NCBI GenBank assembly: GCA_001784475.1
Contig: MFRE01000015.1
Coordinates: forward strand, 1 to 49,660
Length of the DNA: 49,660 bases
DNA from: Candidatus Magasanikbacteria bacterium RIFOXYD2_FULL_41_14
Lineage (GTDB): Bacteria; Patescibacteriota; Patescibacteriia; Magasanikbacterales; GWA2-37-8
Direction: 5' to 3'
The position numbers and the translations under genes were made by a program. This document shows positions 2,855 through 46,476 of the stretch, piece after piece. Each line of letters starts with the position of its first letter. Position 1 is the stretch's first letter. The notes below the pieces were generated by a model, which did no database searches, was not told the DNA's origin, and worked only from the letters and a program-made list of their open reading frames with translations.

Positions 2855-4012
2855 ATGTTTGAGACCTTTTTAAATTTAGAAGAATCAGCCACCGTGGCGA
2901 TAAATAGTTTAGCGCAAGAAAAAAAAGCCAAAGGGGAGCGGGTATATAATTTAAGCGCGGGCGAACCAATGTTGTCCCCACATCCGGCTGTAGCCAAAGT
3001 GGCGAGCATTGCTATTGCCGAAGGTAAAACTTTGTATCCGCCGGTGGCTGGCATACCGCCATTGCGCCAAGCGAGTGCCCAGTGGCTAAATACAACTTAC
3101 CAAACGAATTATCAAACTGCCAATACTTTAATTACCTGTGGCGGCAAGTTTGGAATTTTCGCCGCTTGTCAGGCCTTTTTAAAACCAGACGATGAAGTTT
3201 TAATTCCCGCGCCTTATTGGGTATCGTATCCCGCAATTGTAAAATTATTTGGCGGTAAACCAATCACGGTAATGGGCGATGAAACCAATAATTGGAAAGT
3301 AAGTGCGTTGGAATTAGAAAAGCTCGCCACACCCAAAACCAAAATGCTGATTTTAAACAATGCTGGCAATCCAACCGGTTCGTTGTATGCGCGCACAGAA
3401 TTAGCCGAGATTGTTTCTTTGGCCAAAGCGCGTGGTTGGATGATTATTTCCGACGAGGTGTATAGTGGATTGAGTTATGATGGTGAATTTATTTCGCTCG
3501 GATCATTTCCGGAAATTACCGATAATTTAATTTTAGTGCAAAGTTTTTCTAAACATTTTGCCATGACCGGTTGGCGAGTAGGAATGATTTTCGCGCCAGA
3601 ATATGCCATTAAAATATTAACCAAAATTCAGGGCCAAAGCACTACCGGCACGAGTAGCATTAGCCAATACGCCGCTCTTTCCGCTTTGGAAAATGCCACT
3701 GAAATTCAAACACAGGTGTGCGCCGAGATGCGGTCGCGTCGGGACGCATTAGTGGCAGAATTAAATACTTTTAGCAAAGAAAAAATCTCCGCGCCGGCTT
3801 CGGGTTTGTATTTATTTTTTCCATTAAAAATTTTAGGAGTGGAAAATATCACTTCCGCGGAATTTTGTTTGAAAATTTTACGTGATGCCAATATTGCCCT
3901 GGTGCCAGGTAGCGCGTTTGGTTGCGAGGGCTACGCGCGCGCGTCCTTTGGCGCGCCGGTGGAAGAATTAAAGGATGCGGTCAGTGCTTTAAAAAAATAT
4001 TTGAAAATGTAA
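2855..4012 (+). CDS. Class I/II PLP-dependent aminotransferase (aspartate/aromatic type)
   Basis: LNNAGNPTGSLY, SDEVYSGLSYDG, SFSKHFAMTGWRVG (PLP lysine region). Confidence 0.9.
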   Translation: MFETFLNLEESATVAINSLAQEKKAKGERVYNLSAGEPMLSPHPAVAKVASIAIAEGKTLYPPVAGIPPLRQASAQWLNTTYQTNYQTANTLITCGGKFGIFAACQAFLKPDDEVLIPAPYWVSYPAIVKLFGGKPITVMGDETNNWKVSALELEKLATPKTKMLILNNAGNPTGSLYARTELAEIVSLAKARGWMIISDEVYSGLSYDGEFISLGSFPEITDNLILVQSFSKHFAMTGWRVGMIFAPEYAIKILTKIQGQSTTGTSSISQYAALSALENATEIQTQVCAEMRSRRDALVAELNTFSKEKISAPASGLYLFFPLKILGVENITSAEFCLKILRDANIALVPGSAFGCEGYARASFGAPVEELKDAVSALKKYLKM

Positions 4013-4016
4013 TTTT

Positions 4017-4090
4017 GTCATCCCCGTGTAAACGGGGATCCAGTCGCTGTCTCCCCCTGCCCGAGGGGGAGAAAAAGAGGGGGTGGGAGC
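4017..4090. repeat. Composite palindromic repeats: GTCATCCCCGTGTAAACGGGGATCCAG plus CTCCCCCTGCCCGAGGGGGAGAAAAAGAGGGGGTGGGA
   Basis: First half also seen at 16262 and 24290; second half also seen inside grpE at 32829. Confidence 0.75.
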
Positions 4091-4156
4091 GCTACGCCGT
4101 TCAGTCGGTTGACTTTTTCCATTTTTTTTGGTATTTTAAATGCGCTATATATATGT

Positions 4157-4320
4157 ATGGCCTCATGCCGATACCGCTTCGACGGTATCGAGCATCCTCG
4201 ATTTTGTCGAACAAAATCGGGATCGTCTAATACAAATCATGGCCTCATGCCGATACCGCTTCGACGGTATCGAGCATCCTCGATTTTGTCGAACAAAATC
4301 GGGATCGTCTAATACAAATC
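4157..4320 (+). repeat. Two perfect 82-bp tandem repeats directly upstream of tRNA-Glu, each with two perfect hairpins flanked by tRNA 5'-end sequence
   Basis: 4157-4238 and 4239-4320 are identical; hairpins GATACCG-CTTCGA-CGGTATC and CGATTTTG-TCGAA-CAAAATCG. Confidence 0.95.
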
Positions 4321-4322
4321 AT

Positions 4323-4397
4323 GGCCTCATCGTCTAACGGCTAGGACAGAGCCTTCTCAAGGCTTAAATCGGGGTTCGATTCCCCGTGGGGCTACCA
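4323..4397 (+). tRNA. tRNA-Glu (anticodon CUC), CCA encoded
   Basis: Acceptor GGCCTCA/TGGGGCT, anticodon loop TTCTCAA on stem GAGCC/GGCTT, T-arm GGGGTTCGATTCCCC, ends ACCA. Confidence 0.93.
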
Positions 4398-4547
4398 CTA
4401 TCACACAATCGGAAAATTTACCGATTTTTTCACGGGCGGTCGCCAAGGTCGTCCAAGCGTTTTTTGGCCAACCGTCGCCGTTTTTATATTCCCCCAGTAT
4501 TAATTTATCTGATATTTTTGTTATCATACTCGTATAATTAAGTTTGC

Positions 4548-6695
4548 ATGCTTTCCCCACAAGATAAGATAAATATTTATAAATCCATTTTTATTGGCCG
4601 CACCGATGTTTTTGCGCAACATTGGATTTCGTGGGACGGGAAAAAACAAGGATGGTTTCCGGTTCACACTGACCGTGCCAATACTGCCTATGCGCCGTTT
4701 ACCGACAGCGTTCTTGAAAATCATCTTCGTGGCAATAAAATAGTTGGCATCTATCCGCTGCTCACAAATAATACTTCATGGTTTGTCGCGGCTGATTTTG
4801 ATGGCGACCATTGGCAAAAAGAAGTCGTGGCCATTATGCTGGTATGTAAAGAATATAATTTGCCAATTTATGTAGAGCGTTCACGCTCTGGCAACGGCGC
4901 GCATGTTTGGTGGTTTTTTGAAACTCCGTATCCGGCATTTAAAAGTCGTCTAATTTTTCTGCGCCTTTTGTCGCTATCAAATAGCATAGATCCATTGGAC
5001 GGCGAACGCAGTTTTGATCGTATTTTTCCCAATCAAGATTATTTATCAGGTAAAGGTTTAGGCAATCTTATCGCTTTACCGCTTCAAGGCGTGGCGCGCA
5101 AAAATGACAATACCGTATTTTTAGACACGGAAAATAATTTTTCGCCGTTTGTCGATCAGTGGGATTTTTTGCGAACAATACAAAAAATAGTGACAGCTAC
5201 CCTTGATGAACTTTACGCTAAATTGATTGAGCAGAAAAAAATTACCACTTCTATAATTAAATATACTGGCTCCGATTTGTCAATAACCGTTGGCACACAT
5301 ATTGTTATCCCTAAATTGTTCGTATTTAAAGAATTGGCGACTTTTCTTGGTGAGCAACTCAATTTTTTTAATACCGAGTATGCCGTCAAACAGCGGATGG
5401 GTTTGTCTACTTATGGAACGGAAAGATATTTTAAAATGATTGAAAAAGATGATGCCAACATTTTGCTCCCACGTGGATTTCTTGGCTCTCTCTTACATTT
5501 TCTAAACGAACAAAAAATTCCTTATCATATTACTGATGAGCGCCACCAAGATAAACCAATAAACTACGATTTCTCTTGTTCGCTTTTTGATTATCAAACT
5601 ATCGCACTTAACGCTTTCAAAAATAGCAACACCGGCATCTTGGTCGCTCCACCGGGATCGGGCAAAACTATTATGGGTTTGGCTTTAGTCGCGAAGAAAA
5701 AACAACCGGCTTTAATTCTGGTTCATCGAAAACAAATTTTTAATCAATGGTTGGAACGAATTGAAAATTTTCTCGGTATACCAAAGAAAAAGATTGGTCA
5801 GATTGTTGGTGTCAAGAAAAAAATTCAAATACCTATTACGGTCGCGATGGTGCAAAGTTTGTCTCGTCTTGAAAACATCAGGGAACTCGCCAATCAATTT
5901 GGGACTGTGATTGTTGACGAATGCCACCACATGCCGGCCAAAATGTTTCGACAAATTATTATCAAACTCAAACCAGCATATTTGTATGGTTTGACAGCAA
6001 CGCCAACCAGAAAACGTAACGATGAACGGCTTATTTATATTTATCTTGGCGAAATTATTCATGAAGTAAAAAATACTCAAAATAATAGTATTTCAGAAAA
6101 ATTAGTCGCGAAAACTGCTATCACAAAATTTTACGAAAAGCCATCTGTTTCTATCATTATTAAAACCACCACTCTTAATTTTCCTTTCAAAATTTCCGTT
6201 CGCAATAGTCAGCCGGTAATAAAATCGTTGTGTTTTGACACCACTCGTAATCAACAAATTATTAACGATATTATTCAATCTGCTCAATCCGGGGAAAAAT
6301 GTTTGGTGCTTACCGAACGGAAAGAGCACGTTGATATCATGGCTGAATATTTAAAACGTGATTTTGAAATTATCACTATGACTGGTGGCTTGACCGCAAG
6401 CAAGAAACAGGAGAAAGAAAAACAAATTTTGTCCGGACATTTTCAAATTATTATAGCGACCGGACAACTGGTTGGCGAGGGCGTGCATTTCCCGCATTTG
6501 GATTCACTTTTTTTAGTTTACCCGTTTTCTTTTGAAGGCAAATTGGCGCAATATATTGGTCGTATCCTCCACAGTGATAGTTTAGCCAAAACAGTTTATG
6601 ATTATCGCGACGAGCTGGTTCCATATTTTGAACGGATGTATAAGCAACGAAAAAAGTATTACAACAAGCATTATCCGCCAGAAACCATCGCATAA
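4548..6695 (+). CDS. AEP-primase-like domain fused to superfamily II (DEAD/DEAH-type) helicase; TOTE-like conflict-system architecture
   Basis: N-term FVAADFDGD and ERSRSGNGAHVWWFF primase-like motifs; C-term APPGSGKT (Walker A), VDECHH (Walker B), GLTATPTRK, GRILHS helicase motifs. Confidence 0.8.
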   Translation: MLSPQDKINIYKSIFIGRTDVFAQHWISWDGKKQGWFPVHTDRANTAYAPFTDSVLENHLRGNKIVGIYPLLTNNTSWFVAADFDGDHWQKEVVAIMLVCKEYNLPIYVERSRSGNGAHVWWFFETPYPAFKSRLIFLRLLSLSNSIDPLDGERSFDRIFPNQDYLSGKGLGNLIALPLQGVARKNDNTVFLDTENNFSPFVDQWDFLRTIQKIVTATLDELYAKLIEQKKITTSIIKYTGSDLSITVGTHIVIPKLFVFKELATFLGEQLNFFNTEYAVKQRMGLSTYGTERYFKMIEKDDANILLPRGFLGSLLHFLNEQKIPYHITDERHQDKPINYDFSCSLFDYQTIALNAFKNSNTGILVAPPGSGKTIMGLALVAKKKQPALILVHRKQIFNQWLERIENFLGIPKKKIGQIVGVKKKIQIPITVAMVQSLSRLENIRELANQFGTVIVDECHHMPAKMFRQIIIKLKPAYLYGLTATPTRKRNDERLIYIYLGEIIHEVKNTQNNSISEKLVAKTAITKFYEKPSVSIIIKTTTLNFPFKISVRNSQPVIKSLCFDTTRNQQIINDIIQSAQSGEKCLVLTERKEHVDIMAEYLKRDFEIITMTGGLTASKKQEKEKQILSGHFQIIIATGQLVGEGVHFPHLDSLFLVYPFSFEGKLAQYIGRILHSDSLAKTVYDYRDELVPYFERMYKQRKKYYNKHYPPETIA

Positions 6696-16060: not shown

Positions 16061-16537
16061 AATATGACGTGAATTTTCAGAAACATGTTCAATCACTATG
16101 GTGATTATTTTTTTATCTTTCAACAACTTCTCAATTTTGTTCGGCCATTCAATCACGCAAATGGTATCGGGCGCGCCTAAATAATCCTCCACGCCAATGT
16201 CAATTAATTCTTGTTCGTTTTTTAAGCGATAGGTGTCAATGTGGACAAAATTCGCTTTACTGTCATCCCCGTGAAAACGGGGATCCAGCGTTTCGCTTGT
16301 ATTATTTTGCGACTGGATTCCCGCTTTCGCGGGAATGACAATTTTATAAATATTCATCAAACTAAACGTCGGACTCGTGATTTCTTTTTCAATACCAAAA
16401 TATTCCGTCAGCCCTTTGGTAAATGCGGTTTTGCCAGCACCTAATTCTCCGGATAATAAAACAACATCGCCACCCTGTAAGGTGGCGGCAAATTTTTTGG
16501 CAATATCTTTTGTTTCTTGTATTGAATTGGAAATCAT
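16025..16537 (-). CDS. tsaE: tRNA threonylcarbamoyladenosine biosynthesis ATPase TsaE, with in-frame repeat insertion
   Basis: LLSGELGAGKTAFTKGL, TSPTFSLMNIY, HIDTYRL, VIEWPNKI. Confidence 0.9.
   Translation of the reverse strand: MISNSIQETKDIAKKFAATLQGGDVVLLSGELGAGKTAFTKGLTEYFGIEKEITSPTFSLMNIYKIVIPAKAGIQSQNNTSETLDPRFHGDDSKANFVHIDTYRLKNEQELIDIGVEDYLGAPDTICVIEWPNKIEKLLKDKKIITIVIEHVSENSRHIVIANEVKQSQN
16262..16340. repeat. Palindromic element GTCATCCCCGTGAAAACGGGGATCCAGCG...CCCGCTTTCGCGGGAATGAC inside tsaE
   Basis: Two internal hairpins; translated in frame as VIPAKAGIQSQNNTSETLDPRFHGDDS. Confidence 0.85.
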
Positions 16538-24289: not shown

Positions 24290-24360
24290 GTCATTCCCGC
24301 GCAAGCGGGAATCCAGAAGTTTAATAACGTGACTGGATCCCCGTTTTCACGGGGATGACA
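24290..24360. repeat. REP-like element GTCATTCCCGCGCAAGCGGGAATCCAG...CTGGATCCCCGTTTTCACGGGGATGACA
   Basis: Two hairpins; same family as the insertion in tsaE. Confidence 0.8.
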
Positions 24361-44319: not shown

Positions 44320-46476
44320 TTAACTAGAAATTGCCTGGTCAAAATCAATTAAATATATTCGCGGTTTTTTGGTAAAATCAACTTGACCGTTTTCGTCCCT
44401 AAAAAATCTTAGGCAAAAATTTCCAGAATGACAGTCGTGGCCATGTACGACGCCTTGTTTTCGTAAAACACTTTTTATTTTATCAGCGTCTCTGTTTAAT
44501 TCGCCTAAAAATTCCCCATCCAATATTTCCCAATCAGCCAAACTTAAATCAAGTACTCCGCTATAAACATCAACCAAATCTTGTTTGTTTAAATGGTATG
44601 ATATGATTGGCTCAACGGGAACATAGTCAAATCCTTCATTTTTCCATAATCCGCAATCTTCATACATTTTTTGCCAAGCCATAAAAGCAGATGGAATTAT
44701 TCGTCTTATTATTGTTTTTCCTTTTAATTGACCGCCGACTAAAAATGTTTCCGATCCATCTTTAGGAAATTGTTTTCGTGAAAATTTGTCTTTCAGAACA
44801 TTTATTTTTTCATACAATCTTGGTTCGACAATGCTATCTCCTAAATTCTTTTTAGCTAATTCCAACAATGCTTTTCTGTCACTTTCAAAAGCATACCGAA
44901 TCATTTTTGAGCATATGCTTCTGGTTTCCAGATCCTCTTGTTCTAATCCCATTCTTATTAATTCCACCCGTTCACTCGCGGAAACGTACATAATCATTCT
45001 CGCACACACTCTTTTGGTTTCCTGGTCTTCCTGTTCTAATCCCATCCTTATCAATTTTCCTCGTTCATTTTCAGGAGCGCACGCAATCATTTTGGCGCAC
45101 ATTTTTTTAGTTTCTGGGTCTTTCTGTTCTAATCCAGCTTTTACTATTTCTCCAACTTTCATTCTGAGTTTCTCTTGTTCATTTTTTGGAGCCCGCCAAA
45201 TCATATCCGCACAAATCTTTTGAGTTTTTGGGTCTTCCTGTTCTAATCCAGCTTTTACTATTTCTCCAACTTTTGTTCTGAGTTTCTCTTGTTCGTTTTC
45301 TGGAGCGCGCCCAATCATCTCTGCATACACACTTTGAGTTTCTGGGTCTTCCTGTTCTAATCCAGCTTTTACTATTTTTCCAACTTTCTTATTTAATATT
45401 TCTCTTTCGTTTTTAGAAACGCTTTCAATCATATTGGCACACGCCTTTATGGTATCTGGGTTTTCCTGTTCTAATCCCATTCTTATTAATTCCACCCGTT
45501 CACTCGCGGAAACGTACATAATCATTCTCGCACACACTCTTTTGGTTTCCTGGTCTTCCTGTTCTAATCCCATCCTTATCAATTTTCCTCGTTCATTTTC
45601 AGGAGCGCACGCAATCATTTTGGCGCACATTTTTTTAGTTTCTGGGTCTTTCTGTTCTAATCCAGCTTTTACTATTTCTCCAACTTTCATTCTGAGTTTC
45701 TCTTGTTCATTTTTTGGAGCCCGCCAAATCATATCCGCACAAATCTTTTGAGTTTTTGGGTCTTCCTGTTCTAATCCAGCTTTTACTATTTCTCCAACTT
45801 TTGTTCTGAGTTTCTCTTGTTCGTTTTCTGGAGCGCGCCCAATCATCTCTGCATACACACTTTGAGTTTCTGGGTCTTCCTGTTCTAATCCAGCTTTTAC
45901 TATTTTTCCAACTTTCTTATTTAATATTTCTCTTTCGTTTTTAGAAACGCTTTCAATCATATTGGCACACGCCTTTATGGTATCTGGGTTTTCCTGTTCT
46001 AATCCCATTCTTATTAATTCCACCCGTTCACTCGCGGAAACGTACATAATCATTCTCGCACACACTCTTTTGGTTTCCTGGTCTTCCTGTTCTAATCCCA
46101 TCCTTATCAATTTTCCTCGTTCATTTTCAAAAGCACAGTAAATCATTTGCGCACACACTATTTTAATTTCCAAATTTGCCTGCGCTAACCCAGCTCTTAT
46201 CAAACGACCGCGTTCATCTTTTAGAGAATCAATTATTTTTTTTTCTAAAAGAAGGGGTGAATTTCCAGCAGCTTCTTTAATTTTTTGATCTTGTTTTTTG
46301 TCGCTTAAATATCTGACCAAGGAATGCTCGGTTATCTCGTCTTGTCCGGAAATTTCATACATAGACAAAAATTCCGGTCTCGCAAAAGCTGGTTTGTTAA
46401 TATTTTCGTTCGCTGATATTTCTGGTGTCAATATATCTGCCACGCCATGCTCTAGTTTCATATAATTTTTTGGCAA
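44320..46476 (-). CDS. HEAT/ARM-like repeat protein with kinase-like C-terminal domain
   Basis: Repeats of (V)KAGLEQEDPETQ..CAxMIxxAPENE; C-term VVHGHDCHSGNFCLRF...RIYLIDFDQAIS. Confidence 0.65.
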   Translation of the reverse strand: MPKNYMKLEHGVADILTPEISANENINKPAFARPEFLSMYEISGQDEITEHSLVRYLSDKKQDQKIKEAAGNSPLLLEKKIIDSLKDERGRLIRAGLAQANLEIKIVCAQMIYCAFENERGKLIRMGLEQEDQETKRVCARMIMYVSASERVELIRMGLEQENPDTIKACANMIESVSKNEREILNKKVGKIVKAGLEQEDPETQSVYAEMIGRAPENEQEKLRTKVGEIVKAGLEQEDPKTQKICADMIWRAPKNEQEKLRMKVGEIVKAGLEQKDPETKKMCAKMIACAPENERGKLIRMGLEQEDQETKRVCARMIMYVSASERVELIRMGLEQENPDTIKACANMIESVSKNEREILNKKVGKIVKAGLEQEDPETQSVYAEMIGRAPENEQEKLRTKVGEIVKAGLEQEDPKTQKICADMIWRAPKNEQEKLRMKVGEIVKAGLEQKDPETKKMCAKMIACAPENERGKLIRMGLEQEDQETKRVCARMIMYVSASERVELIRMGLEQEDLETRSICSKMIRYAFESDRKALLELAKKNLGDSIVEPRLYEKINVLKDKFSRKQFPKDGSETFLVGGQLKGKTIIRRIIPSAFMAWQKMYEDCGLWKNEGFDYVPVEPIISYHLNKQDLVDVYSGVLDLSLADWEILDGEFLGELNRDADKIKSVLRKQGVVHGHDCHSGNFCLRFFRDENGQVDFTKKPRIYLIDFDQAISS
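44939..46129. repeat. 528-bp tandem repeat within the HEAT-like gene (two full units plus a partial third)
   Basis: ATTCTTATTAATTCCACCCGTTCACTCGCGG occurs at 44951, 45479 and 46007; protein units identical. Confidence 0.92.

Follow-up and report, generated by a model that had tools for sequence, protein, structure and literature searches.

SegB, a free-standing GIY-YIG homing endonuclease of phages T4 and T6, cuts DNA that contains tRNA genes, and, as reported for phage T6, it drives a tRNA segment to amplify in tandem through recombination (PMC13096335). In CPR bacteria, rRNA genes contain GIY-YIG ORFs in non-intron insertions as well as short insertions that lack an ORF, in most cases located at the top or the base of rRNA stem-loops; some of these insertion sequences have degenerate ORFs, and the GIY-YIG genes are regarded as lying outside homing (PMC11270868). 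For the double-hairpin, or repetitive hairpin, elements of mitochondria, the mode of mobility is unsettled (e.g., PMC2800124).

The window analysed here (the whole stretch of 49,660 nucleotides of contig MFRE01000015.1 from Candidatus Magasanikbacteria bacterium RIFOXYD2_FULL_41_14) contains, just upstream of tRNA-Glu(CTC), a short array of partial tRNA copies split by hairpins, which is probably an ORF-less, tandemly duplicated relic (or a miniature form) of a mobile element that resides at tRNA genes and has a small GIY-YIG nuclease at its core. The likeness to SegB lies in the GIY-YIG enzyme and in the T4 segB ORF ending a few nucleotides before tRNA-Arg; the difference is that SegB is a 221-aa phage protein, whereas the proteins considered here have 80–90 aa, are chromosomal and come together with a dead half of the neighbouring tRNA. 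T4 segB was considered as an exact precedent and rejected: neither a dead tRNA copy nor a palindrome was found before it. The rRNA gene insertions likewise come from CPR bacteria, but they lie in rRNA and not in tRNA genes, and tRNA, hairpins and palindromes go unmentioned in that report (PMC11270868). The mitochondrial elements resemble the palindromic insert of the array (element E) in having adjacent hairpins, in being dispersed, in lying within rRNA and coding genes and in being patchy between close species (PMC2800124), but they are organellar, and the comparison with E is one of description only. REP sequences and REPINs share with E an inverted pair of hairpins and dispersal, and at clean E insertions, as in those systems, no target-site duplication was seen; unlike REPIN/RAYT, however, the only Y1 transposase (Y1_Tnp) gene of this genome has other flanks and not E, and a RAYT was rejected as the mobiliser of E. 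In the open-licence literature, an incomplete body of work, no description was found of an arrangement that combines a GIY-YIG gene and a restored tRNA with a dead, palindrome-bearing tRNA half.

Two dead tRNA-Glu copies upstream of the intact gene

The first-pass annotation had described two perfect 82-bp units, each of them a tRNA-Glu 5′ end that a 57-nt double hairpin interrupts, and this holds throughout 4157–4320: in the assembly sequence the two copies (4157–4238 and 4239–4320) are 100% identical, and a partial third runs into the tRNA itself, which matches the Rfam tRNA model with 57.3 bits (Table 1). Each unit consists of ATGGCCTCA, a 57-nt element (TGCCGAT..ATCGGGA; in blocks, TGCCGATACCG..CGGTATCGAGCATCCTCGATTTTG..CAAAATCGGGA), TCGTCTAA and TACAAATC; the earlier cut into ATGGCCTCAT, 57 nt and CGTCTAA gives the same unit with the ambiguous bases assigned otherwise. 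When ATGGCCTCA and TCGTCTAA are joined, they read AT followed by the first 15 nt of tRNA-Glu. The 57-nt insert, E, comprises a pair of inverted hairpins, CGATACCG-CTTCGA-CGGTATCG and CGATTTTGT-CGA-ACAAAATCG, with GAGCATCCTC as its centre, and both hairpins are real, as had been proposed. That the resemblance to the tRNA might be coincidental, a doubt raised beforehand, is contradicted by a match chain scoring 23 as against at most 13 in shuffled flanks, by the z of −7.2 of the folded leader and by the absence of the insertion from the congener.

Table 1. Features of the tRNA-Glu(CTC) locus in the window.
Feature	Position	Strand	Remark
Promoter-like TTGACT-17-TATTTT (extended TG)	4109..4137	+	flank kept in congener G001 up to tRNA start; identical stretch TGGTATTTTAAATGCGCTATATATATGTAT
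Dead copy 1, tRNA-Glu 5′ end (AT + nt 1–7, GGCCTCA)	4157..4165	+	
Element E, dead copy 1 (hairpins 4169–4190, 4199–4219)	4166..4222	+	inserted after tRNA nt 7; no target-site duplication
Dead copy 1 continued, tRNA nt 8–15 TCGTCTAA; tRNA match then stops	4223..4230	+	
8-nt filler TACAAATC, at position of GIY-YIG ORF in sister elements	4231..4238	+	
Dead copy 2, tRNA-Glu 5′ end	4239..4247	+	
Element E, dead copy 2, identical to copy 1	4248..4304	+	
Dead copy 2 continued, TCGTCTAA + filler TACAAATC	4305..4320	+	
Intact tRNA-Glu (CTC)	4323..4397	+	100% identical to congener's
Terminator-like hairpin 3′ of tRNA	4434..4454	+	weak: 1 found, 0.6 expected

The 164 bp sit between the promoter-like sequence and the tRNA. 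The comparison of this 5′ flank between relatives, as suggested earlier, showed that the insertion is absent from the congener G001, where the same promoter runs straight into an identical tRNA-Glu; the upstream stretch TTGACTTTTT..TGGTATTTTAAATGCGCTATATATATGTAT is about the same there as in the window, and its last 30 nt are identical. Since promoter and tRNA are joined directly in the congener, the 164 bp are most simply a derived insertion. As far as sequence comparison can carry them, both this insertion and the anatomy of the array may be called well supported. No nuclease ORF is present within 4157–4320, where only the 8-nt filler occurs, so the array is at most a relic or a non-autonomous form. 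An Rfam scan of 3900–4700 gave the tRNA alone above threshold, with no family for the array and no group I or group II intron.

Another explanation would be that the array is a functional leader, in which the palindromes and the extra 5′ ends govern folding, RNase P processing or the amount of tRNA. Its position, with a conserved promoter-like sequence on one side and the tRNA on the other, would suit this; and in equilibrium folds the 3′ acceptor strand of the tRNA pairs with the first dead copy (0.92) and hardly with its own 5′ end (0.03), while removal of the palindromes spreads the acceptor pairing (0.31/0.43/0.24). Such an effect, however, would harm the tRNA rather than help it, the congener and other relatives have the tRNA without the array, and the leaders of sister loci contain an ORF instead, which makes a leader function improbable. 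The idea that the palindromes protect the folding of the tRNA was likewise dropped, the equilibrium folds pointing in the opposite direction.

Integration into tRNA genes is a classic pattern and usually leaves a partial tRNA repeat behind. The array might, on these grounds, be the scar of a phage or ICE integrated by a tyrosine recombinase, with att-like repeats. This is very improbable: the whole insertion has only 164 bp, the repeats are interrupted by palindromes and vary in length from 17 to about 60 nt among the elements described below, and these encode a GIY-YIG nuclease alone and no integrase.

Two long ORFs of the window are mentioned here as observations. One, 3′ of the tRNA (4548–6695, plus strand), encodes 715 aa with, by eye only, a primase-like N-terminus and a helicase-like C-terminus; the other (44320–46476, minus strand) encodes 718 aa that are mostly imperfect internal repeats of about 31–38 residues, including a long internal duplication.

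Element E and the sister loci in the same genome

A search with the pattern of the centre of E, for which the reversed pattern gave zero matches, found copies on C3, C5, C6, C21 and C22 of this genome in addition to the window. The canonical form is TCCCGATT..AATCGAGGATCCTCGATT..AATCGGGA, and simple copies have 57–64 nt; both hairpins are conserved at their bases, and the inner stems vary between copies yet remain paired. The distribution in the order is patchy (5/95 genomes), with at least 28 copies in G080, where the inner stems differ and have recombined between copies around a constant centre AATCGAGGATCCTCGATT. The first-pass annotation had named as possible objections a unique insert and a coincidental tRNA similarity; these objections, so far as they were open to test, fail because the element is dispersed, with a family at other sites of the genome and in relatives, and because the insertion is absent from the congener.

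E also interrupts genes. One copy lies cleanly inside the sole RNase P RNA gene found in the genome (L019 1482–1545, C21), at a site that is uninterrupted in G002 (AGTG/GGTAA); the same gene holds two further palindromic inserts (CCCTGCTTCGCTGCGCTACGCAGGG..CCGGGCGAAGCGCAGCGAAG), and its match is below the Rfam threshold. In G019, copies were seen in apparent coding sequences, identified by reading only as a CCA-adding-enzyme-like gene (L034 1375–1434) and a ribA-like gene (L043 ~1498–1557); the former copy has 60 nt, that is, 20 codons, so the frame may be kept. Other copies are intergenic. E thus has the attributes by which RPE- and DHE-type elements are recognised, namely two hairpins with conserved bases, dispersed copies and insertion into RNA genes and apparent protein genes. 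On C22 (L003 1505–1563), E is followed by TAGTTT (nt 10–15 of tRNA-Arg) and a second double hairpin just 5′ of tRNA-Arg(tct), possibly another decayed relic.

An anatomy like that of the window array recurs in this genome at tRNA-Val, tRNA-Glu(ttc), tRNA-Asp and tRNA-Pro, and at the last three a GIY-YIG ORF of 80–90 aa separates the dead copy from the intact tRNA. At tRNA-Glu(ttc) (C3, L004, minus strand), the order is a promoter-like sequence, the 5′ end AAACTGGTCCCA, E, TCGTCTA, an 83-codon GIY-YIG ORF and the intact tRNA AAACTGGTCCCATCGTCTAACGG..; here, a second E is nested in one hairpin loop of the first. The congener allele is empty at this locus too, so that both tRNA-Glu(CTC) and tRNA-Glu(TTC) have a filled allele in this genome and an empty one in G001. 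At tRNA-Asp (C12) and tRNA-Pro (C5), palindrome-bearing dead copies, the ORF and the intact tRNA are all present. At tRNA-Val (C5:6021 on), E lies in the D-loop of the dead copy within a tandem array that is broken by an assembly N gap, and the filler before the intact tRNA reads RLINEAFLEYN-stop; this resembles the C-terminus of the ORF (..AIERLIN..), so the filler looks like an ORF remnant. With its 8-nt filler, the window array would be a further reduced form than the tRNA-Val array. As the window array holds no trace of an ORF, its link to the GIY-YIG nucleases is drawn through these sister loci.

The scar most likely belongs to a GIY-YIG nuclease element, of which intact examples occur at further tRNA genes of this genome and across many phyla, and the dead copy is most likely the residue of the invaded tRNA, or of a duplicated half of it. 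Of the earlier interpretation, the palindromic element within a partial tRNA copy, the amplification in tandem and the scar of an insertion hold; less likely is a free tRNA pseudogene into which a palindrome fell by chance. A version of the latter would have a dispersed palindromic element, comparable to the Rickettsia palindromic elements or the mitochondrial double-hairpin elements, enter a decaying partial tRNA duplicate, which was then duplicated in tandem with no nuclease at the locus. The window array without an ORF, and the occurrence of E alone in the RNase P RNA gene, in the apparent coding genes of G019, between genes and in the many copies of G080, speak for this version. At the sister loci, however, including the other tRNA-Glu of the same genome, the palindrome lies 6–17 nt before the break of the 5′ fragment, with a GIY-YIG ORF and an intact tRNA downstream, and chance insertion would not hit fragments of so many different tRNAs again and again; we therefore consider this version unlikely. 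That the array is an assembly artefact is hardly credible: the perfection of the tandem copies and the N gap in the tRNA-Val array might raise the suspicion, but E, the dead copies and the ORFs recur in independent assemblies of many projects, and the dead copy holds an insert that is missing from the intact tRNA.

GIY-YIG elements at tRNA genes and a candidate mechanism

When an alignment of four such proteins was used to scan one genome per species, it yielded 48 GIY-YIG relatives in Patescibacteria, Deltaproteobacteria, Bacteroidota, Ignavibacteriota, Clostridia and others. In 37 of the 48, a tRNA gene on the same strand adjoins the ORF, and in most of these cases the opposite side of the ORF shows a dead half of the tRNA, usually with a palindrome. 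Two mirror forms exist: 5′ fragment, ORF and intact tRNA; or intact tRNA, ORF and a 3′ fragment with the palindrome. A less biased sample, consisting of all Pfam GIY-YIG matches in 29 genomes of the order, contained 66 small ORFs; in 16 of them the stop is followed directly by a tRNA on the same strand (mostly within 20 nt), and in five such a tRNA directly precedes the ORF, as against an expectation of about 0.2 by our own estimate from some 45 tRNA genes per Mb. Under a conservative null, an automatic test recognised the dead copy clearly in 23 of 41 cases; others were read by eye. Phage and plasmid collections gave only distant relatives (34–43% identity).

Most dead copies contain a palindrome, either as a clean insert (at nt 7/8, in the D-loop or in the T-loop) or in place of the anticodon arm, as in the tRNA-Met element GAGCA/TCCCGATGCATATCGGGA/GAGTCC, and the tRNA match stops about 6–17 nt after it. 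A stem of at least 7 bp precedes the ORF at 25 of 38 loci, compared with 139 of 999 control windows. The dead half is broken by a palindrome, but an intact tRNA copy persists in the element. Within the same order, G069 and G080 carry tRNA-Glu elements, tandem dead copies are also found at tRNA-Ile in G080, and an ORF-less dead copy with a double hairpin occurs in G017 (L141). Another locus of G017 (L198, C22:89290–92030) shows whole units in tandem, each a tRNA-like fragment with a palindrome and a GIY-YIG ORF, partly masked by an assembly gap.

The proteins of the sister elements score 44–63 bits against Pfam GIY-YIG; among 19 aligned members, Y5, Y15, G17, R25 and E61 are invariant, so that the catalytic residues are kept, and the closest solved structures are those of UPF0213 proteins and endonuclease II. 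A tree was built from 111 small GIY-YIG domains (85 usable columns, most forks weakly resolved); on it, the tRNA-linked nucleases group by isotype (Pro, Asp, Glu, Ala, Ser and Lys) across phyla. The isotype label changes 38 times on this tree, a count that includes the label 'none', itself clustered, as against 58.5 times after shuffling (0/200 shuffles as low); the single isotypes Pro, Asp and Ser also pass (0/500 shuffles as low). The nuclease phylogeny thus tends, on the sequences available, to follow the tRNA isotype across hosts, and the 5′/3′ polarity switches inside isotype groups. An intact nuclease ORF, filled and empty alleles and isotype clustering are also among the marks by which a free-standing GIY-YIG homing element is recognised.

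Beyond what can be read directly from the sequences, namely the recurrent anatomy, the empty allele, the isotype clustering, the kept catalytic residues and the palindromes in the dead copies, a course of events may be proposed. A complete element consists of a promoter, a 5′ tRNA part with a palindrome, a GIY-YIG ORF of 80–90 aa and a complete copy of the same tRNA. The nuclease would cut the tRNA gene, and repair of the break (homing) would copy in the element together with a replacement tRNA half, so that a functional tRNA would be rebuilt and never lost. The palindrome may mark or destroy the cut site in the half left behind; it is placed directly ahead of the point where the dead half breaks off, as would be expected of a destroyed cut site. 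On the other hand, the intact tRNA copy of a filled allele should remain a target of the nuclease. The relic in the window would have lost its ORF, and its 82-bp unit would have been duplicated via recombination or slippage between the repeated tRNA 5′ ends; the tandem duplication fits such recombination, as reported for SegB in T6 (PMC13096335).

These findings point to a class of minimal mobile elements (a single gene of 80–90 codons, a hairpin and a tRNA half) that is widespread and apparently undescribed and that would invade essential tRNA genes without killing them, and many small bacterial genes annotated as 'GIY-YIG nuclease family' thereby gain a likely role. The atp6 element of Allomyces mitochondria consists of an endonuclease ORF and a replacement gene part. 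It likewise pairs a nuclease ORF with a substitute for the interrupted part of the target, but the target is a protein gene and the host a fungal mitochondrion.

A second clade framed by palindromic repeats

How gene-less short palindromic repeats spread in bacteria is an old question, for which a GIY-YIG nuclease offers an expressible candidate enzyme. It is possible, and we put it forward tentatively as the less probable outcome, that small GIY-YIG nucleases are the mobilising enzymes of dispersed bacterial palindromic repeats, as a counterpart of RAYT and REP: one clade is framed on both sides by inverted GTCATTCCCG, GTCATTGCGAG or GTCATTCTGAG hairpins and co-varies with the hairpin type; another would be specialised on tRNA genes, with a palindrome in the dead half at one end and the restored tRNA at the other; and E and the scattered palindromes would be non-autonomous copies.

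Among the small GIY-YIG ORFs without a tRNA there is a 19-member clade (support 99), in which most ORFs are framed by palindromes, either as GTCATTCCCGC..GCGGGAATCCAG, ORF, CTGGATTCCCGC..GCGGGAATGAC or with frames of the GTCATTGCGAG and GTCATTCTGAG types; GTCATTCCCG-type palindromes are dispersed. The sub-clades correspond to palindrome types. Inverted flanks scoring at least 16 were found for 11 of 45 non-tRNA ORFs and for two of 93 control ORFs, a twelfth match being left out as an artefact of N runs. Five GTCATNCCCG..CGGGNATCCA palindromes, hairpins that elsewhere frame a clade of GIY-YIG ORFs, occur in the window itself (16262–16339, 24290–24359, 4017–4042), where zero would be expected by chance; four of the five make up two inverted pairs, double-hairpin units without an ORF. 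Taken together, the framing palindromes, the matching sub-clades and the ORF-less pairs of the window suggest that the nucleases may move palindromic repeats. Four further non-tRNA ORFs end inside their right-hand palindrome.
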